Below, one piece after another: positions 1 to 42,096 of a stretch of 64,000 nucleotides of DNA. Every line of letters starts with the position of its first letter. Position 1 is the first letter of the stretch. The translations under genes and the position numbers were made by a program. Source of the stretch: Sphagnum magellanicum (Eukaryota; Streptophyta; Sphagnopsida; Sphagnales; Sphagnaceae); the NCBI GenBank assembly GCA_021904315.1, contig CM038912.1, positions 18,625,061-18,689,060 on the forward strand, written 5' to 3'. The notes beneath the pieces were generated by a model that was not told the DNA's origin, did no database searches, and saw nothing but the letters and a program-made list of their open reading frames with translations.

Positions 1-43
1 ACCCGCAAATGTTTACCAAATTACACTGGTTTATCTATAAATT

Positions 44-117
44 TTTTAAAAATTCTTTAAAATTCTTGTTTCTTTGGGCTTCCATAACATTCTCGCACCA
101 AGAATGTCATAACTATG
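44..117 (-). mobile_element. MITE-like fragment, related to the 1126-1225 element
   Basis: About 60-70 bp here are the reverse complement of the left and middle parts of the 1126-1225 element, ending in AAGAATGTCATAACTATG at 100-117. The other terminal repeat is not visible: sequence left of about position 44 differs. The element is therefore truncated, rearranged, or a longer relative that starts outside the window. It abuts the left edge of duplicated copy A. Confidence 0.7.
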
Positions 118-169
118 ATTATAATTTTCTTTAAAATCCTACACCTTATAATCTACATTTAGTCAACAA

Positions 170-1436
170 CTTAAGCTTTTGACATGCATTAAATTCCCCA
201 AAATATGTAGGTACTTTTTACCAGCTCAAGCATCTCAACAAATGAAGGTTTGGAATGCATTGAATTGACTAATATACATAGGTAATTTTTGCAAGTTCGA
301 ACACCCTAACAAATGAAAGTTTTTAAGTGTAATCAATTGCCCAATAGAGGTAGGTAATTTTTGCAAGTTCGGACAATCGTTCAAATGAAGGTTTTGGAGT
401 GCATTCAATTACCCAATAGATGTAGGTAATTCTTACAAGATCAAACAATCGTTCAAATGAAGGTTTTGAAATGCATTCAATTACTCGATAGATGTAGGTA
501 ATTCTTGCAATTTCAAACAACTTGACAATTCAACGTTTTGGAATGCACTCAATTGCCCAATATATGTATGTAATTCTTGCAAGTTCAAACACCCCCACAA
601 ATCAAGGTTTTGGAATGCACTCAATTGGCCAATAGATGTAAGTAATTTTTGCAAGTTCGAACACCCCCACAAATGAAGGCTTTGGAGTGCATTCAATTGG
701 CCAAAAGATGTAGGTAATTCTTGCAACGTCAAACAATAGTTCAAATGAAGGTTTTGGAATGCATTCAATTTCCCAATAGATGTGGGTAATTCTTGCAAGC
801 TTGAACAATCATCCAAATTAAAGTTTTGGAGTACATTCAATTGGCTAATAGATGTAAGTAATTCTTGTAAGCTTGAACAATCATTTAAATGAAGGTTTTG
901 GAGTGCACTCAATTGCCCAATAGATGTAGGTAATTATTTCAAGTTTGAACAATTATTCAAACAAAGGTTTTTAAGTGCACTTAATTGCCCAATAGATGTA
1001 GCTGATTTTTGTAAACATGAACAATTTGATAGACTAAGGTCTTAAAGTGCATTCATGTGACCAATAGATGTAGGTAATTCTTGTAACCTCAAACAATCGT
1101 GCAAATGAAGGTTTTGGAGTACATTCATAGTTATGACATTCTTGGTGCGAGAATGTTATGGAAGCCCAAAGAAGCAAGAATTTTAAAGAATTTTAATGTG
1201 CAAAATGAAGAATGTCATAACTATGAGTACATTCAATTGCCCAATAGATGTAGGTAATTTTTGCAAGCTCAAAAATCATTCAAATGACGGTTTTAGAATG
1301 TAGTCAATTGCCCAATAGATGTAGGTAATTTTTGCAAGCTTAAACAATAATTGAAATGAAGGTTTTGGAGTGTTGTCAAATGCTGAATAGATGTAAGTAA
1401 TTATTGCGAATTAGAACAATTGTTCAAATGAAGGTT
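170..1436 (-). pseudogene. Decayed 3' part of the LRR array, copy A
   Basis: The 72-bp LRR units of the neighbouring NB-ARC-LRR gene continue downstream of its stop codon at 1437 almost to position 170, about 16-17 more units. They are interrupted by stops, single-base indels and a MITE. The unit still reads LPTSIGQLSALQNLHL in stretches, for example an open 143-codon segment at 481-912. Small indels shift the reading frame, for example near 1268, where a unit lacks one base. This looks like the former C-terminal LRRs, now untranslated unless read through. A 3' untranslated role is possible but nothing shows it. Confidence 0.85.
1126..1225. mobile_element. 100-bp MITE inserted in the LRR array (Mutator-like by TSD length)
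   Basis: The element begins CATAGTTATGACATTCTT (1126-1143) and ends with its perfect reverse complement (1208-1225), giving 18-bp terminal inverted repeats. The flanks carry the direct repeat AGTACATT at 1118-1125 and 1226-1233, or 9 bp if the preceding G is counted. The host LRR unit resumes exactly after it. An 8-9 bp target duplication with short inverted repeats fits a Mutator-type MITE; that class is inferred from duplication length only. Element plus duplication adds 108 bp, a multiple of three, but brings an in-frame TAA in the LRR reading frame. No equivalent insertion is seen in copy B. Confidence 0.9.
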
Positions 1437-2653
1437 TTAAAGTGGAGTCAATTGTGTAATAGATGTAGGTAACTCTTGCAAGCTCGAACAATCGTTCAAA
1501 TGAAGGTTTTGGAGTGCACTCAATTGTCCAATAGATGTAGGTAATTCTTGCAAGCTCGAACAACTTGACAAATCAAGGTTTTGGAGTGCATTCAATTGCC
1601 CAATAGATGTAGGTAATTCTTGCAAGCTTGAACAACTTAACAAATCAAGGTTTTGGAGTGCACTCAATTGCCCAATAGATGTAGGTAATTCGTGCAAGCT
1701 TGAACAAACATTCAAATGAAGGTTTTGGAGTACACTCAATTGGCCAATAGATGTAGGTAATTCTTGCAAGTTCGAACAACTTGACAAATGAAGGTTTTGG
1801 AGTGCACTCAATTGCCCAATAGATGTAGGTAATTCTTGCAAGCTGGAACAATCGTTCAAATGAAGGCTTTGGAGTGCACTCAATTGGCCAATAGATGTAG
1901 GTAATTCTTGCAAACTTGAACACCTTGACAAATGAAGGTTTTGGAGTGCAGTCAATTGGCCAATAGATGTAGGTAATTCTTGTAACTTCGAACAATTGTG
2001 CAAATCAAGGTTTTGAAGTGCACTCAATTGGCCAATAGATGTAGGTAATTTTTGTAAACTTGAACACTCCGATAAATTGAGCTCTTGAAGTGCATTCAAT
2101 TGACCAATAGATGTAGGTAAGTCTTGCAAGTTTAAACACCCCGATAAATTAAGTTCTAAGAGTGCATTCAATTTGCCCATAGATGTGGATAATTTCTTAT
2201 CAACACATGTTAACATATTAAAGCCAGGGCTTAAAATATCAAAAAAAAATTGTAGACGATTACATTTTGTTATATGGAGTACTTGTAAGTGACAATAATT
2301 AAACAAATTATTTGGCAACTTTTTGATCATGCATTCTTGGAGACACAACCATCGAAGGCTATTCAAATCTTGACCTTGGATAAAATTTTCCACTGTATAT
2401 GGCGAGGCTTTTGTTAAGTCAAGTAACTTAAGGTTGTGAAACTCCTTTGAACCATTTTGGAAAAATGAAGGCAAAATTTCACATTTTTTTAAAGAAAGGC
2501 CTTCTAAAAATTTCATCACCTATCACATCAAACAAAATTTAAAAAATTGTCAACATCAATAGAAATAAATTTTCATTATAATGCCATGTTTTTAATGAAA
2601 ACATATTACACCTTTTAAAATAAAGTCAAAACTTATGGTTTCATTTGGAATTT

Positions 2654-2693
<40 letters not shown>

Positions 2694-4378
2694 ATAAGAT
2701 TGAATTAACAAACGTTGCTCAAACCTGATTCTTTTGCAAAGATATATTTGGTTTCCATATAAATCGACTCATTGTAACTTCCGTTGCGATATTTCGACCC
2801 ATGTCTTGTAATTGTTCATGCATGTACAAGTTGCCATCTTTTGCCCATTTGATCAAAGATCTATCTTTCAAGTTTTGTAACATAAGCATAGGGCTCGATG
2901 AATCATCTCCATTTGAATACACTCGACAAAACGTACTTTTATTGAAACCAACGAAAAAACAAGCAATATCCAAAAACATGTCTTGATGTTCTTTATTCAA
3001 GTGGTCATAAGAAATCCGCAAAGTTTTCCAAAGCATTTCATTGTCAGAGCCCCCTATTATGTTTCGCCCACCTTTCAATTTGTCCAATGCATCTTTCCAT
3101 ATTTCCAAATCACAAATATCACACAAATAACAACCCAATATTTCAAGGCTTAAAGGGAGGCCCCCGCAAGCTTTTATAATCTCCATAGAAATGTTTTTGA
3201 AATCATTTGTCACACTATTTGCATGTTTGAATGCATGGAACATGAAAAGTTCCCTTGCTTGTTCTTCCTCCAAGAATGCCATGTCTACTTGTGCAGTCTC
3301 CCTTACATGGTTTTTCAATATTTGCCAATTTCGACAATTTACAAGTATTTTGCTCTTGCAATCTACATTAGTTGCATGTTTGTCAATAGGAAGCTGCAAG
3401 GTGTCAAGGTTTTTCATCATACCAACATCATCCACAACCACCAAAACTTTATTCTTTATCATGCATTGCTTGATTTCATCAAGGTATTCATCAACATCTT
3501 CATTCTCGTGTAATTTTCTACCACATAAATCTTGTAGAAGTTTTCTTTTTACATCATTGATGTCTTTTGATTTCACATCCTCCAAGAAGCTAGATTTTTC
3601 ATATTGGTTGTGGAACAAATGATACATTTTTTTACACAAAGTGGTCTTCCCAATCCCACCCATTCCAACCAATGCAACAATAGATTCCTTTTGAAACAAA
3701 CTATGTATGGCATTTGCTTTATTTTCCAATGCCACTTCATAACATGGGAAAAGTGGCAGAGTTGGTGTTTTCTTTTCCTGTCAAAATTCACCAAAAAATA
3801 AAATTTATTTTAAATAACGAATAACACCTTAAAAATTATGGCACACAATTTAAGTGAAATGATGTAATGTTTGCATTGAAATTACATGAACATACATAAT
3901 TCTAAAAATTAAAACCAATGTTATTTACCTTCATAAAAAATTTCAAACATTCCAATAATTTGGAATAGCTTAAATGGTCCTTTGTTGGGGGCTTGCAAAT
4001 TGTCAAGTGATTAGCATCTTCGACTTTGTAATTGTTATTATTCTATTTCACATGGGTTGGTTTAAATGATGCAACAAAAAAACAAGCAAAATTATTGATA
4101 TTCAACAAGGAAGCTCATAAACTGATATCAAATTTCAACATGTAGCTTCAAAAAACCCAAGAAAAAAAGTTGTGCAAAACAAGTTCAATCATAAAATCAA
4201 GAGGACGCACCACATGGGGGCCTTGTCTAGAGCTTGAAGGAGCATTTTCACCCGGGATTGGAGGTGTGTTGATCACACCATGAATTTGCATAACATCTCC
4301 TTTTCTTTTTTTTGGTGGCCCTTGTGAAACATCATCTTTTCTCTTACGATGAGAAAATGAATCTCCCATACCTCCCAC
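1437..4378 (-). CDS. NB-ARC-LRR disease-resistance protein, copy A (4 exons, about 785 aa)
   Basis: Probable intracellular immune receptor: the NB-ARC ATPase switch controls signalling and the LRRs sense ligand or self-inhibit. My exon model on the minus strand is 4378-4252, 4023-3929, 3777-2725 and 2519-1437. All introns are GT-AG and reading phases agree (1, 0, 0). Exon 1 encodes a short basic N-terminus with an NLS-like PPKKRKG; no TIR, coiled coil or kinase domain is visible. Exon 3 is the NB-ARC: P-loop GMGGIGKTT (about residues 112-120), kinase-2 VLVVVDDVG, GLPLSLEILG, FLDIACFF, and MHE where MHD is usual. FLDIACFF and the Asp-ended kinase 2 are TIR-NLR-like features. Exon 4 has a lead-in of about 110 residues and 11 LRRs of 24 residues. 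It stops where CAA became TAA in the 11th unit, and more LRR sequence follows. Either a truncated functional receptor or an early pseudogene. Exon 1 and its donor (CCGG|GTGAAA) are the least certain parts. Confidence 0.85.
2660..2691. repeat. (TA)n microsatellite in intron 3 of the copy A gene
   Basis: An alternating TA run lies between the NB-ARC exon and the LRR exon. The same run in copy B (about 31998-32026) is shorter, so it is a length-variable site within the duplicated intron. Confidence 0.9.
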
Positions 4379-11289: not shown

Positions 11290-12220
11290 TGGTGCAAGAG
11301 GAAATGTTGAGAGTGCAACTTTGTAATAGCCATGGAAAGATCCATGAAAAAGATGGCCTGATTTTGAGCTTGCAACATGAATTTGATCATAACCAGGTCT
11401 TATTGTAAGCAAAAACCCTATGGCACACATTAGAATTGGAAAGAGCCAAAGCCCGAGAGTTTGTGGTGGAGCAAAAGTGGAATAGTTGTGAAACTGAACT
11501 GAAGGCATAGGTGGTAACATTACATATGTGTGTGTAGATGCATTTTAGAGTTAATTTTTGACAATATAAAATAAAATGGTGGAATAAAAAAAGCTTGTTG
11601 CGAAGCAGCTTGGGAAGTGGAGAATGAAACCTTGATGGTTGCAGTATTGGAAGTAGAATACCAGTTTTTTAACAAAGATCAAAAGTTGCATTTGACACTT
11701 CAAACACAAATGATTGAAGCAGAGGTTCATGAAAGGGCATTGTCTTCATGTGCCAAAGAGCTTCTCATGGGGAATGAAGTAGTAGCGAGAACCTTGGATT
11801 TCCTTGCAGTGAACACCTTACCCCACTTGGCACATGCAATCAAATTTCTAAGATTCAAGGTTTTTCAATTTGCTTATAATGTTTGTGAGTGGCAAGCTCT
11901 TAGACACAATTATGTAAAAACTAGATAGATTGTGAGAATACATTTAGGGTTCCAATTGAAAGACATTTTTGATGACTTTAGGAGGAGCCTGTGGCATTTG
12001 GTAATATTGCCCAAGTTCGTTTTCTTACAAAAATTTCACATTGGTGTTTCCTTTTCAATGAATTCTTGGGGATTGTAAAATTTTGAATAACACCTCATTT
12101 GTTTTTCATTAGCCATGTTTCAATTTCTAAGCAAGGTGGATATACTTCGGTCTTGGGTAGATTCATCAGGCTATGTTGAGGACACCCTTTGGAAATGGAC
12201 CCCCTTCACTTATTACTATC
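11290..12220 (+). pseudogene. Decayed gene of unknown family, copy A
   Basis: Three open segments share one strand and align with copy B. The first (about 11300-11507) reads LILSLQHEFDHNQ and then ELERAKA and FVVEQ, a charged, helix-prone, coiled-coil-like stretch; it is broken by TAA (CAG in copy B). The second (11617-11928, 103 codons) contains TQMIEAEVHERALSSCAKE and is intact here but interrupted in B. The third (about 12115-12220) contains KVDILRSWVDSSGYVEDTLW and ends at a donor-like CAAG|GTATCTG. It looks like exons of one former gene, but I do not recognise the family and assign no function. Confidence 0.6.
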
Positions 12221-12338
12221 AAGGTATCTGTTTCATCTCAAACATATGAATTATTGGTGTAAATGTGTGTCCAAATGTCAAGGTATTTGTTTCATCTCAA
12301 ATATATGAATCATTGGTGTAAATGTGTGTCCAAATGTC
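12220..12338. repeat. 59-bp minisatellite, 2 units (copy A)
   Basis: AAGGTATCTGTTTCATCTCA starts at 12221 and its near-copy at 12280, giving a 59-bp period. Copy B has three units at the same place (41720-41896). Confidence 0.9.
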
Positions 12339-12538
12339 AAGAGGTCTTCAAATATGTGTAGTAGATGTTGGTAGCTCAAAGAAAACTTAGTTCTATATGG
12401 TCCAAATTGCTTCTTTTTAGCGAGACTTTGCTTGAGTTGATGTGGTCACATTCTAGAATGTTGATCATGGATATGGTAAAGGAGGATTGAAATATGTAAT
12501 ACCTGCATACTTACTTACATACATAAGTACATGTATTT

Positions 12539-24043: not shown

Positions 24044-27000
24044 GTAATGATGGCCTATCCAACCCCACCCTAGTCTTCTGTGAAAGTTTTTTATTAATCC
24101 AACCCCTTTTGTTCACTCTTTTGTTCTTACCAGTTGGTTTTGGGTCCACCACCCCATTAACAGAATTATTTACTCCAGTTAGTTGTGATCCAAAGGAGCT
24201 TGGTTTTTGTCATATTTACACAAGTGATGAGAAATGAGAAGGAAAGAGGAAAGGGGTAGGAAGGGATTGGAGAGATATAAATAAAATTCCTACAACAAGG
24301 GAGCTTAAAGGGAGAATTTACAAACCCTTTGTTGTGAAGGATTGTTAGACAAACCAATGAGATTTTAACTCATAATATTTTTGGAAACTTTTCACACCTT
24401 ACCCTGGGGTTTGGTGGCAATGATAAGAGTACGTTCTCTACCATTGTAAATGTTTAATAATAACAGATTGTTTATTTATTTATTTATTTTTCTTTATGAT
24501 CTATAAATCATAAGGTATAATTATATTTAATCATAAAAATCTTTGAATTGACACTATATAACCTTGGATTAATCCAAGCCTTTTTCCCAACTACAAGATT
24601 CTAGTGTGTGTATTTTTTCCTCTTTTAAGGTGAGGGAATGGCAAACACTCATGAAAAGGAAAGATGCACATAGGAAGGATTGTCCAAACACACAATTCCC
24701 ATCCAAAGTTTGAAGTTCAAGTTTACAACTAACCATAATCCATACATGGCAACTTTTACTAAATTTTTTTCTTAGTCAATATTTCTCAACCAACTTCTGA
24801 TATCCTTGTGAACATTGTGTTTGTGCAATCATCAGTTTATTATGACCATGTCTCAAGAATTGGGTAAACCCAAGTTTGTACCATGGTAAAACCCCAAGCC
24901 CATTTCTCAAATAGTTGCTTGTAAACATTATGTGGATTAGTATTGGACAGTTCTTTGAATTTTTTAAGAAATGTCAATTCCAAATCTTTGAATATTTCTA
25001 GTTTTCGATGATTCCAATTTTTTGGAAAAAAATTAGAATGGAAGAACCATTGGTTCTAGTTGCTATTTCAAAAGCTTCAAAGAACAAATGATTTTCATTA
25101 AAGAATTGACCCAACAAATTTGATGGAAGTTTGGAAAGTTCTTTCATTTTTTAAAATTTCAAAAACCATGGTTATTGTATCAAAATTGGATATTTGATAA
25201 ATATTGAAAACCAATGAGTAAGTCGGTATATACCCAATCAATAACTATTGGGTATCTATCCTTCATTTTGAAAACCGCTAAAGACTGATATAGACTTCCT
25301 CCCAAGACTAAATTGGGGTTTTTGAATCTGAATTTCACATTTTTCAAGTTAAATATAGACAATGAAAGGCCTCATTCAAAAGGTTAAAGTGCCATTAGGG
25401 GTTTCCCTTGGGCCAATGTCTGATTTTTTAATGACCCACATTTCATTATTGGGTGCTTGTTGTGCCATGATGTTGTGGTCCAAGTCTGCCTTGCACATAT
25501 TGCACCCCTTTGCTCACCATGAGAATAATTTAGCTTTGAAGAGTGCATCATTGAATTTGGATATATACATTTGCAAGCATACATACCAATCTATTAAAGA
25601 AGGTAGTTTGTTTGTCACCCAAGGATCTTCCAAACCATGAGAAGTAATTTCATAAATTTTAAAGTTTAAACATATAGTGCATGAGTTATTGAATAATGAT
25701 CATCTTACAATTGAAATTGTAATATAAATAAATAAAATAAAAAATTGAGGCACATTATCAAGATCATGCTTAGGATTGAACAACTTTGAAGCATTGAAAA
25801 TTCACAAGTCAACAAATGATTTGTTAAAAAATATTTACAACTAACTTCACATATTTTCCAATCATTGCTTTCATCTTCTCCAATGAGTCAAAAAAGTAGA
25901 TATGTACGTGTGGTGCATGTAATGCATCATATTAGAATTTTTTTTTGCCATTTAAAAAGTGCTTGACAAAAGAAATAGTTATGAAAAGATCAAGGTCCTT
26001 GGTGCCATGTGCAAAGTTATTGGGATTTTAAAGATTATTCCTCAACAAAAAAATAGTTGGTTCCAAAGAGGAGCCAATGGTAAAAATGTCAACCATGTCC
26101 TTATGAAATAATTGATTGAGTTCATTCAACCCAATCAACAAATGTACAATTAGATGTAACATAATTGATATGAGGTTATTTAAATACCAATATGACTAAA
26201 TTAAAACTATAGACGATTCAAATATTGCAACAAGCATGTAAGACAAGGTGCATTCCAAAACCTATAGGTGAAATAATCATCTCACTATTAATGAAATTCC
26301 AAGATGATCAAAGGTGTGTCATCAAATGCCAATTCCACGAGTCATTTCAATTCTTATACCCTATGTTATGTTTAACCCACTCATTACTCAAATTAAAACC
26401 AAAAATTGATTTGTACCTTTCCATGTTTTGTCCCAACAAGTTTTTTCAATTGTCACTTTTTGTTTAATCACACTTCTCCAATCTTAATTTCACTTATGGT
26501 TGTTCTTTCAACTTCCAAATTTTGATCAATGTTACTGGCAATTATGAGAACTACACAAAGAATGAAGATTTTTATTTTGGAGATTTAGTTTTGCATACAA
26601 AAATCTACCTTGATAATATACCAAATGGTTATTAAGTTGGGCATTTCAAAGCCAACCCTTATGCATAATAGACACATGTTATCAACAAAATAACTAAGGA
26701 AATTGATAACCAAGTATATCATTTAAACAATAATGTAATAATATAGTTGGGTTTCAAAAAAAATCAAAATCTAGTTATTTGATCCCCTATGTCAAACCAA
26801 AAAAAAATGCATGCCTTTGAAAACTTCCCCCTCTCCCAACTTCCCCCCCTTTATGTTATGAGAAAAAACAAAAACATTTGAACTTGTCACGCCCTTAAAT
26901 TCATCTTAAGGTATTGGGAGTAAACCTTTAAGTTGATGGTAATGCTCTAAAAAGGGGAAATATAAGGAAAAATTGGTGGCATGTTCCCTAGCTCCTTACA

Positions 27001-28350: not shown

Positions 28351-28576
28351 CAACAAATGAAGCTCTTGGGTTGCATTCAAGTAACCAATAGATGCAGGAC
28401 TAATTTTTGCAAATTTGAACACCCCCATATTAAATGAGCTTTTAAAGTGCACTCAAATGGTTAATAGACATACATCTATTCTTGCAACTTCAAACACCCC
28501 CACAAATGAAGCTCTTGGAGGGCATTCAATTGGTCAATAGATGTAGGTAGTTATTACAAGCTCAAACAATTGGACA
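28351..28576 (-). pseudogene. Detached LRR remnant (about three 72-bp units)
   Basis: Three degenerate copies of the same 72-bp LRR unit found in the two resistance genes, recognisable by AATGAAGCTCTTGG..GCATTCAA..CCAATAGATG..GGTA on the plus strand. They lie about 1.4 kb beyond the end of the copy B array, outside the duplicated block, and contain stops and indels. Either the original array reached this far and was split by inserted or decayed sequence, or this is the trace of a third resistance gene. Confidence 0.85.
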
Positions 28577-30012
28577 AGGGGAATGTAAGCTACGTATACA
28601 ATGTAGACAAAATATTATCACAATTTGACAAATTTCAACACGTCCAGATTTGATGCATGATTGTGGATATTTAGAAGATTTTTCTTTATAAAGGGTTCAT
28701 TCACAATTTGAGTTCCAAAAAAAGAGATAAAAACTCCAACATTTCTTAGGGTTACTTTTTAAAATAACAATTACATGGAAAAAAATTGAATGAACAAAAT
28801 TGAGTAGCCCAAGATAAGATAATTCATGTGGTGCTAGTGATTTTTCACATGCATACATAATTGTGCATCAATATTTTGGTTTACAAGTACACATATGACA
28901 TATGCTTTGAGCTAATTTTTTTGAGTTTAATGGATATAGACAAGTAGAAAAGTAATATAAACAAATGAGTATTTACCATTGCAACCATTTGGTTCAAAAT
29001 TTCAAGCCTTTGAAATGTTGATATGATTTTTTTATTCATCAAGTTCACCCAATGAACACATATTTGCCTTAAACAAAACATGTTTTTCTTGTACAAAAAG
29101 TTGAAATAAATTTGGATGATTTTTTACTTTCCTTTTGATTATTCAAAAAATGAAGTTTAAAACAATTAATATCTTTAGTTTAAAAATCTCAAAAAGGCAT
29201 TTACATAATATCCAAAACATTTTTTTATTAATATAATAAAAAATCATTTTATTTATTAACATACAACAATCCACTCCAATTGTTATCATTTCAATAAAAT
29301 AAAAATTGAAAGTTGGACTTCAAAATCCTTGAAAAGTTAAACATTCTTTTTTGGAAATTTCATTATGAACAAACCTTGAAAAGATGTAATAAATGATGGT
29401 TTATATCCTAACTCGTCATTATGTTATGGAATTGGTGCACATATTAATGATTTAATTGTGCAAAAAAAATTATTTTGATTTATAGGGCTTTTAAGAATCA
29501 TTATAATTATAATAAATTAATTGTAAAGTACCAATTTTAATGAAAATTTTTCCATGAAATTTTACCCATATAAAACGACAACCATTAAAAACAATATTCC
29601 CCATCAAAGCTTTCCAAATTTCTTAAAGTCATGGAGATCAATCATATGAATTAAAAAACTTGTTTGTTATTACATTATGTTATGATAATGTTGATGATTA
29701 TGAATATTTGAGGTTGCAAAATGTTCTTCCATTAAAGATATACTTGAGCTAAATATATTTTTAATCATTTGACAACAGTAAATTAGATTTTTAAAATTAA
29801 TAAAAATGTTGTTAGGCAAGGGTTTTAAAAAAACCTCTATAAATTTATTGGTGTACATTTACAATATAAAAGTGCAATTATGAATCAATTAAATATTGAT
29901 GATTTTTATAACATATTTTTGTTTTCAAACCCCAATCATTTCTATATGATCTGTACAATAATTCAAAATGAATAAAATCTTATTGACACAATATATAATT
30001 TTAGTTTTGTTT
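28577..30012. other. AT-rich spacer, no gene recognised
   Basis: Low-complexity A/T-rich sequence between the LRR remnant and the copy B array. No open frame with a recognisable domain. Confidence 0.5.
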
Positions 30013-36527: not shown

Positions 36528-39500
36528 TTAAAGATGGCAGTTGAAGGAACGAACCTACATGTTGTTGTTTTTTTAAGCTAGTGGGTTAGCTAACTGGATT
36601 TGCTCTCTTATTCAGGTATTCATTCTTATAGGTGTTTTCTGTTCAATTCGAGTTTCCCTAGCTACCCATGGTGGTTAGCTCGGTTGCTTTTTTTTCTTTT
36701 TTTTCTACCTACCTACTAATCATCACCCACAAGCAGGTTGGTAGTAGGTATAAAATAAAAGCAGCCCTTACCTATGTATAAACCATATACTTACCTAATA
36801 ATACCTTTTTTGTAAAAAAAAAACCTATCTACCTATATACAAGACCTATTTCCTACGGAATTGGTTATCAAGGTGAAACCAAATATTAACTCAGTTAAAG
36901 TTCATCCACAACTGAGTAAATAACAGGCATCCAGTGGATGGATGGTGTGCCTGTGGGTGCTGGTTCACTGGGCTGGCAAAGGTAACTAATGAGAACTGGT
37001 AAGTGTTAAAATTGAGAGCGACCACCTACCACAAACCTATGAGGACCTTACTAGTTTCCATCCAACAAATCATCCACCCCTACGCCTACTCAAAGACACC
37101 ACGAATGAATGTAGGTTAGCCATTGCCTTTGCCTTGCCTTTTTTTTCCTTTAAAAGACACAAAGTTCATTCAAGGACCCAAGAATAATACTTTTTTATAG
37201 GTGAAGATTTATTAAAAAAAGAAAGAAAATGAAACCTTGTATGAAAATTATTTTTTATTGGTCAGAAAATGGAAAAATGTAGCTATGGTGGCATAACCCA
37301 GCCAGCCAGGTTTTCCACCCATCCATCCATCCATCCATCCATCCATCATCATCATCATCATCATCATCCTTGTCTGGAGCTTATCCGGCCATTCAATCAA
37401 ACCTTTGCCAAAATTGGCAGACTTCTCTGGCTGGAGGCGGTGCCCCCAAACTTAGCAGAAACCCAGTAAAGTGTAGCCAGCCAAACGTCCGCTGGACGCT
37501 TCAAAGTTGGTAAAATCCCACCACCTACATTACATACATAACAGCCGCCTTTCTGGACGTGCGCTAAGAAGAGAAAATAAACTTCACTTATTATTACCTA
37601 CCTTTGATGTGAAAAAAGCTATTTTTTTCAAAAGATGGAATGCCAACAAAGCCTGCTTTCACAGACATTTTGGTTTTTCCAATCCAACAGAGCCGGTTCT
37701 GATGGACAATTTTAAATAAATAAATAACCTGTAAATAAATATTTTATTTATTTATTTATTTAAATTAAATAAATAAAGGAAAAACACCTGGCAAGGGAAC
37801 AAGAGAAGAAAAAAAGAGAAAGGATCCAAGTCCAAACAAAAAAAGACAACACTCAAAAATGCAAACTGCTCAATGGAGAGTCCCAAGAGGAGAAACCAAG
37901 TAACCTATGCCCTAAACTCATCACCAGTAGCAGGAAGCAAGTTGTGAAAGGAGAGGGGCAGAAATACATGGAAAAACATTTTGGTTTTTGAAACGTAGAG
38001 TGAGTGTTTGGTTCTTTGAAATAAAATTGAACAATTTTTTTTTCATTATTCCTGTGATACGTGTGGTGGGTGGGTACCGACTGGGTATCATGAACAAAAA
38101 AAAGAAAAAAGAAATTGGAGCAGTAAGTAAAGCCCTCGTCGTCTTGTCTACATGTTTTAGCCTACACTACAGCAACGATGTGGTAGTTAGTTTTCATTTG
38201 CTCCCACATTTTGAGGATTGTTCAGCAGGTGTTGTTCCTACGTGAATCTATGAGTTCAGTTCTTAGGGAGTTCAAATTTGTTTTATAAAAAAACGATGTA
38301 AGGAAGGATGCCATTACGGCGGTGAGGCCTGCTTATTTGGTTTTCATAAATAAGGGGCTTTTAAAGGCTTGGGTTCTTGACTTTTGAAGCTTTGATGAAG
38401 CAGATTCACAGGCAGCGTACAAGCCAGGCTGAGAATGCTGCTGGCCTCGGCGCGCTGCCGCTGCTCTCCTCAACATCGCATCGCAACGTGCTCTTTTCTC
38501 TCTTTCTCTCTCTATTATGATGTTGCCTCTCCTCCTCCTTTCCCCCTTCACTTCCTTCTCCTCCTCAGCATCGCAATTTCAAAGAATGCTATAACCTTGG
38601 CACCATCACTTCCACCCTCAGTTGTTCAGAAACATATACACGCGCACACACCCATCTGCTGGATTCATCGAATTTTGTCTGTACAGGTTTAGTTCAAGCA
38701 AATGAAGACAAAATTCCAAATGTTTTTGAAGCATGAGACATTAATTCACTCCTATATGCAATTGAAGCATGAACAACATTGTAATACACTTTGAATTGAA
38801 TTAAGATTCAATTGAAGAGAAATGAGATGCAAATGGGTGGAAAATGTATTGAAAATCTTCTATTGAATATGATGTTGGAAAAAAAACTTTGAAAATATAC
38901 AAATAAGAAAAGACACCTTTCCACGTTTGTTCACTTGAGAATGGGCTAAACAAATTCTAGTTTGAAACCATCCAATTTATGATGATGATTTATGGAACCA
39001 AAAAATTTCCTACCTAAACTAGCTCCAATAAATCATCATCACTTAAATTAATCTATATCATATTATGGTGTCAAAGGTTCAATTCCCACTTGTGACATTT
39101 GACATTTGCAATCTATTACATGTGTAAGGGGCTAGGTTATTTGTGATCCAACTACTTTATGGCTTATGGTTCCTACCTACTACATTTAAATAGGTAGTTC
39201 ATAGCTAGGTATGAAAATTTGGGTTGGATCACCTTTTTAAAAAAAACACATGTGACTTACCTATTACTTACCTACCTCATCTACTTACCACCAAAAAGAA
39301 AAAAGTCAAATTATTTAGAAATAATGATTTATGATAGATTCATTTTGTGCAACAATTTTTTTTCCCCAAATTGTTGATGCTTGAAATTTTTATTATTTGA
39401 TTTGACTAATCAAAGGTCCATCATTTGACTAGTCAAAAAGATCACGAATTGGCTTGTTCAAATCAACTTGTCCAAAATGATAAGTTGGTCAAATTGGGAA

Positions 39501-40799: not shown

Positions 40800-41720
40800 T
40801 GTTGAGAGTGCAACTTTGTAATAGTCATGGAAAAATCCATGAGAAAGATGGCCTGATTTTGAGCTTGCAACATGAATTCGATCATAACCAAGCCCTATTG
40901 CAGGCAAAAACCTTAAGGCACACACTGGAATTGGAAAGAGCCAAAGCCCAAGAGTTTGTGGTGGAGCAAGAGTGGAATAGTTGTGAAACTAAACTAAAGG
41001 CATAGGTGGTAACATTACAAATGTGTGTAGATTCATTTTGGAGTTAATTTTGACAAAAGAGAAGAAAATGGTGGAATCAAAAAAGCTTGTTGCAAAGTAG
41101 CTTGGGAAGTGGGAAGTGGAGAATGAAACCTTGATGGTTACAACATTGGAAGTAGAGCATTAGTTTCTTAACAAAGATCAAAAGCTACATTTGACACTTC
41201 AAGCACAAATGATTGAAGCAGAGGTTCATGAAAGGGCATTGTCTTCATGTGCCAAAGAGCTTCTTGTGGGGAATGCAGCAATAGTGAAAATCTTAGATTT
41301 CCTTGCAGTGAACACCTTACCCCCCTTAGCATAGGAAATCAAATTTCTAAGATTCAAGGTTTTTCAATTTGCTTGCAATGTTTGTGGGTGGCAAGCTCTT
41401 AGACACAATTATGTAAAAACTAGATAGATTGTGGAGAATGCATTTAAGGTTCCAATTGAAGACTTTTTGATGACTTTAAGGAGGAGCCTATGGCACTTGG
41501 TAGCATTGCCCAAGTTTGTCTTCTTAAAAAAATTTCACATTGGTGTTTCCTTTTCAATGAATTCTTGGGGATTGTAAAATTTTGAATAACACCTCCTTTG
41601 TTTCTCATTAGCCATGTTTCAATTTCTAAGCAAGGTGGATATACTTCGGTCCTGGGTAGATTCATTGGGCTATGTTGAGGACACCCTTTGGAAATGGGCC
41701 CCCCTCACTTATTACTATCA
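40800..41720 (+). pseudogene. Decayed gene of unknown family, copy B
   Basis: Counterpart of 11290-12220. The first segment is intact here (40730-41005, with LLQAKTLRHTLELERAKAQE, helix-prone and charged), while the second is interrupted by a stop after LEVEH and by indels (about 41160). The third segment contains FLSKVDILRSWVDSLGYVED and ends at CAAG|GTATTTG. Family and function unknown. Each copy has lost a different part, so neither encodes the whole protein. Confidence 0.6.
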
Positions 41721-41897
41721 AGGTATTTGTTTCATCTCAAATATATGAATTATTGGTGTAAATGTGTGTCCAAATGTCAAGGTATTTGTTTCATCTCAAA
41801 TATATGAATTATTGGTGTAAATGTGTGTCCAAATGTCAAGGTATTTGTTTCATCTCAAATATATGAATCATTGGTGTAAATGTGTGTCCAAGTGTCA
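41720..41897. repeat. 59-bp minisatellite, 3 units (copy B)
   Basis: AAGGTATTTGTTTCATCTCA starts at 41720, 41779 and 41838. Copy A has two units. Confidence 0.92.
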
Positions 41898-42096
41898 AGG
41901 GGTCTTCAAATATGTGTACTAGATGTTGGTAGCTCAACGAAAACTTAGTTCTATATGGTCCAAATTGCTTCTTTTTAGTAAGACTTTGCTTGAGTTGATG
42001 TGGTCACATTCTAGAATGTTGATCATGGATATGGTAAAGGAGGACTGAAATATGTAATACCTGCATACTTACTTACATACATAAGTACATGTATTT

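Follow-up and report, generated by a model that had tools for sequence, protein, structure and literature searches.

In maize, the Ac/Ds system comprises non-autonomous deletion derivatives together with an autonomous partner, and internal deletions there fall at short direct repeats. Sequence lying between direct repeats can be lost through abortive gap repair, slippage, or single-strand annealing; the first of these was reportedly addressed by Rubin and Levy in 1997. Elements of the hAT superfamily begin their terminal inverted repeats (TIRs) with YARNG. A target-site duplication (TSD) of 8 bp is also typical of P elements, while Mutator-type duplications are usually 8-11 bp long, with 9 bp typical. 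The hAT target preference is 8 bp, nTnnnnAn for Hermes (PMC10368747). Of 207 plant genomes, nearly all are reported to have hAT MITEs in prevalence (PMC12550479).

Here we describe a MITE family of the moss Sphagnum magellanicum, starting from a 100-bp element (element 1) inserted in an LRR unit of an NLR gene. Very probably, element 1 is an internal-deletion derivative of a hAT MITE that has a 5.8-kb partner, and is of local origin. The system resembles Ac/Ds in joining a non-autonomous deletion derivative to an autonomous partner, the latter a candidate here, and departs from it in its DUF659-type transposase and in two apparent shrinkages, from 5.8 kb to about 190 bp and from there to 100 bp. 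With BniHAT-1 and BniHAT-2 of Brassica nigra (PMC7385995) it shares an 8-bp TSD, TIRs, a non-autonomous state, and many copies. The Brassica elements measure 673 and 666 bp, as compared to 195 and 185 bp here, and their TIRs 25 and 12 bp, as compared to 18 bp (PMC7385995). The Sphagnum MITE further differs from both in that an element was identified whose ends match its own and which bears a transposase. Hermes has the same 8-bp nTnnnnAn preference and imperfect TIRs of 17 bp (PMC10368747); the TIRs here are 18 bp long and imperfect in the 5.8-kb element. A difference from Hermes is that a sequence comparison at E 0.001 matched the 659-aa transposase found here to none of the PDB chains.

Materials and methods

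The window is the whole stretch of DNA that was analysed, 64,000 bp in length (C6:18625061-18689060). The genome searched comprised 438,994,042 bases in 31 contigs. In a genome search for relatives of element 1, 40 of 399 candidates were scored and the 39 besides element 1 were fetched; these are its closest matches and hence biased to young copies. Their right ends were set by TIR match alone, before the TSDs were read. A second sample consisted of 20 more places from the TIR listing, nearly all of them single TIR matches; L058, which was cut, and L061, whose stretch contained no partner end, were excluded as untestable. A profile search of the genome with PF05699 gave at least 146 matches, of which 20 were fetched: 19 because their open frames were longer and one because it adjoined a MITE.

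Results and discussion

Structure of element 1

Element 1 is confirmed as a true insertion with a genuine target-site duplication (coordinates of all features are collected in Table 1). The original prediction of a 100-bp element with perfect 18-bp inverted repeats, inserted young and clean in the manner of a MITE and flanked by a TSD, was borne out. The inverted repeat extends over 19 of 19 bases (1125-1143 and 1208-1226), 18 bp of which run from CATAG...CTATG. At up to three mismatches the TIR 18-mer occurs at three places in the window, all of them exact, against 0.17 expected from shuffles; folded as a single DNA strand, element 1 scored z = -4.95. Element 1 is flanked by a raw direct repeat of 11 bp (GAGTACATTCA). 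Some bases are common to the target and the ends of the element, so that the TSD length as read from element 1 alone is 8-11 bp. In a scan at 66% identity, the other LRR units, 24 of them in array A and a further 18 in copy B, were all empty at the position of element 1, and the duplication thus arrived with the insertion.

Table 1. Positions of the mobile elements, their target sites, and the host gene frames within the window.
Feature	Position	Strand	Remarks
Element 2, full-length 195-bp MITE	1..117 (whole = window -77..117; rest in L009)	-	Right TIR without mismatch; TSD ATTATAAT on both sides
Element 2 TSD ATTATAAT, copy inside window	118..125	.	
Element 1 TSD AGTACATT, left copy	1118..1125	.	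Length of 8 set by relatives
Element 1, 100-bp internally deleted hAT MITE	1126..1225	+	TIRs 18/18; 195-bp consensus minus 95 bp, no mismatch
Element 1 left TIR CATAGTTATGACATTCTT	1126..1143	+	383 exact matches in genome (100 places listed), 0 for reversed-pattern control
Remaining copy of 21-bp direct repeat AAGAATTTTAAAGAATTTTAA, deletion junction of element 1	1176..1196	+	Two copies in 195-bp consensus
Element 1 right TIR (left-TIR 18-mer on minus strand)	1208..1225	-	
Element 1 TSD AGTACATT, right copy	1226..1233	.	Length of 8 set by relatives
LRR open frame, copy A, TAA stop at 1437-1439	1437..2519	-	Pfam LRR_14; stop met ahead of element 1 in gene direction
Open frame with NB-ARC of NLR gene, copy A	2719..3780	-	PF00931 E 4.1e-30; PF23282 E 9e-13
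Related empty site, GTTTTGCA once, of L098 MITE copy (TSD GATTTGCA)	26588..26595	.	
Element 2 related empty site, copy B, TATATAAT	29992..29999	.	Approximate, with small nearby differences; left flank 88% over 368 bp

The MITE family

Lengths among the 39 closest relatives were 195 bp (26 copies), 185 bp (11 copies), 194 bp (one), and 196 bp (one). An exact 8-bp TSD was observed around 38 of these, the last matching at 7/8; the 19 testable copies of the second sample comprised 16 with an exact 8-bp TSD, two at 7/8, and one with none. To these copies were added elements 1 and 2 together with their neighbours L098 and L099, the last two not being wholly independent TSD evidence since up to two TSD mismatches were permitted in the search that found them. 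Over the resulting 62 testable copies, the 8-bp TSD was exact in 58, matched at 7/8 in three, and was absent in one.

The 26 sampled 195-mers, which are those closest to element 1, differ by a mean of 0.59% from their own consensus, and the burst is accordingly young. In the second sample the 185-bp forms were 84-94% identical to the 195-bp consensus, with the 10-bp gap counted; other lengths in the family are 175, 184, and 255 bp. Short and non-coding, with TIRs, TSDs, and many near-identical copies, the family has the traits of MITEs. A literature search for the TIR strings found none, and one on Sphagnum, MITE, and hAT led only to a paper with a title on bacteria; Repbase and P-MITE lay outside its scope, and a prior entry is possible. 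Conversion of the right TIR by the left TIR was considered and then rejected, as the right end takes several different forms among older copies. Two individual places may be recorded. The 255-bp variant (L063) has a middle made of an AATTCGT-like short repeat and an exact TSD, CTTGCATC. At L057 (C2:2752-4079), two 185-bp copies separated by 358 bp face each other, and the second has no matching TSD.

From 195 bp to 100 bp

The 195-bp consensus contains a 21-bp direct repeat, at positions 51 and 146, and dropping the 95 bp between yields element 1 without a mismatch. Abortive gap repair, slippage, and single-strand annealing all fit such a loss. A search with the junction pattern gave 207 places at up to two mismatches; of the 100 listed, one was exact, namely the window, and the other 99 differed at two positions. 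If the listing is ordered by mismatches, the junction apparently occurs in no other copy. Element 1 is thus apparently a single-copy internal-deletion derivative of a young 195-bp hAT MITE, and not the unit of a 100-bp MITE family for which it had been taken.

Superfamily and candidate partner

Fourteen of 40 TSDs fit nTnnnnAn, compared with 4.35 expected (p 5e-5). This is a bias and not a rule: the remaining 26 lack the full fit, that of element 1 among them, while the TSD of element 2 conforms. The family TIR start, CATAG, matches YARNG at four of five positions, its third base being T.

The family TIR, at zero or one mismatch, ends a transposase element in two of the 20 fetched PF05699 places, one on C6 and one on C15; a third place with an exact TIR pair held a MITE copy only. 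Between the C6 and C15 transposase elements, identity is 98.2% across 5,627 columns of an alignment that starts exactly at the TIR. The C6 element is 5,798 bp long, with a TSD matching at 8/8 (GGAAATAC), a left TIR at 18/18, and a right TIR at 15/18, and carries a 659-aa open frame with DUF659 and Dimer_Tnp_hAT. Compared with its ends, the MITE is 85% identical over 116 bp on the left and 77% over 73 bp on the right. Because it matches both ends, the MITE has the appearance of an internally deleted relative of the 5,798-bp element, which to judge by these alignments is its likely parent and candidate autonomous partner. By its 8-bp TSD, its nTnnnnAn bias, and a hAT transposase element with matching ends, the family belongs to the hAT superfamily.

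A second open frame, of 321 aa, lies inside the 5.8-kb hAT element (L090 7876-8838) and had no Pfam match at E 0.001; it is possibly captured or intronic sequence.

The local cluster

The original prediction had passed over element 2, the full-length copy at the start of the window. Two more full-length MITE copies lie nearby (L098, C6:18620150-18620550; L099, C6:18623600-18624060), and with elements 1 and 2 they make four family copies within 6 kb. The three full-length local copies have differing TSDs (ATTATAAT, TGCAAATC, and ATCGCGGC, in element sense), and share the variants 70T and 86A, which occur together in none of the 26 sampled 195-mers from elsewhere. For two of the three, related empty sites were located in the window, both imperfect. 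Clustering is not confined to this locus: among the 100 right-half places listed, less than 10 kb separated the members of 14 adjacent pairs (11 without the local cluster), compared with 0.64 expected under uniform placement and on the assumption of a listing complete as far as the window. Shared variants with differing TSDs, along with the clustering, point to local hopping, as far as comparison of copies can indicate; insertion preference or regional duplication may be an added cause of the clustering. In element 1 the diagnostic sites 70T and 86A were removed or masked by its deletion, and its membership of the local group consequently rests on position only. Derivation from element 2 itself is not favoured, since element 2 carries 49A and element 1 does not.

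Alternative explanations

The Mutator-type MITE originally proposed for element 1 would accommodate its 11-bp raw repeat, which is within the usual Mutator range, but the TSD is fixed at 8 bp in the relatives and a hAT site bias is coupled with a hAT transposase within ends common to the MITE; we find this assignment scarcely credible. The proposed check, a genome search for the terminus with tabulation of flanking duplications, did return consistent 8-bp duplications, and these came with evidence that favours hAT rather than Mutator. Another superfamily with an 8-bp TSD, such as P, would be compatible with the duplication and with TIRs that start with CA. It is a remote prospect, however, when the element with matching ends encodes Dimer_Tnp_hAT and DUF659.

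Within the hAT assignment, element 1 could have been 100 bp long on arrival, travelling as a mobile sub-MITE with no deletion during or after its insertion. Perfect TIRs and a TSD are what a normal hop leaves, and we consider such an arrival unlikely without being implausible; set against it are the junction, exact only at the window among the best 100 of 207 places, and the absence of any length below 185 bp among the 39 closest relatives, which are all 185-196 bp. As to the cluster, one insertion might have been multiplied by segmental duplication in place of local hopping. The NLR locus is itself doubled, as copies A and B. Window positions 26552-26650 match the sequence flanking the L098 copy, a sign of further local duplication in a duplication-rich neighbourhood. 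Yet duplication of a single insertion agrees poorly with TSDs that differ among the three full-length local copies and with the related empty sites of two of them, and we regard it as very improbable.

Proposed order of events

The order of events preferred here, deletion of a locally derived hAT MITE, would be as follows. The transposase of the 5.8-kb elements would cut and paste the MITEs in trans. One MITE copy would have hopped locally into a 72-bp LRR unit, and recombination or repair between the direct repeats would have removed 95 bp, whether during the hop, as the gap left by excision was repaired, or afterwards with the element already in place. A broader scenario is also possible, one that we entertain but stop short of adopting: a recently, perhaps still, active moss hAT system, in which near-identical 5.8-kb elements drive a very young 195-bp MITE to hop locally into an NLR cluster, with element 1 a one-step miniaturisation by loss between internal direct repeats. 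The element is ordinary in kind; the history of its family is unusually complete. One genome contains the MITE family with its older 185-bp forms, a copy that has shrunk further, and a candidate source of the transposase. With all of these stages in one genome, the birth, shrinking, and clustering of a MITE can be traced stepwise, and the pairing of transposase and MITE is directly testable.

The host gene and its second copy

The NLR gene lies on the minus strand and encodes, by Pfam, an NB-ARC domain, a Roq1-like winged helix, and then LRRs. Beyond the stop that closes the LRR open frame of copy A, further stops and a frameshift were found at 1439-1257, upstream of element 1 in the gene's own direction and missing from the original prediction. 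The LRR frame being broken ahead of the insert, element 1 sits in a decayed LRR tail, where an effect on the protein would be unlikely; the NLR gene is probably unaffected by it. Element and TSD do total 108 bp, as had been predicted, and two stops in the LRR frame were found where one had been noted; the coding repeat supposed to receive them is not intact, and these stops are moot unless the decayed tail has another use.

About 29.3 kb separate copy B from copy A, and identity between the two is about 99% over the first 2-3 kb past the array and drops to 91% farther out. Each of the four LRR units nearest the gene has one clear partner in B (71-72/72), whereas for the 72-bp host unit of element 1 two B units tie at 65/72. 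Lacking a one-to-one partner for the host unit, copy B provides no true empty orthologous site; that the insertion has no counterpart there is correct, and is a weak argument.

Three further features of the locus were recorded. A 59-bp tandem unit is present in about two copies in A (12219-12341) and three in B (41718-41900). Between copies A and B lies an LRR-like fragment (28353-28577), about 71-76% identical to the array units. Copy B also has a 230-bp stretch (38120-38349) that copy A lacks, and its edges show no evident duplication.
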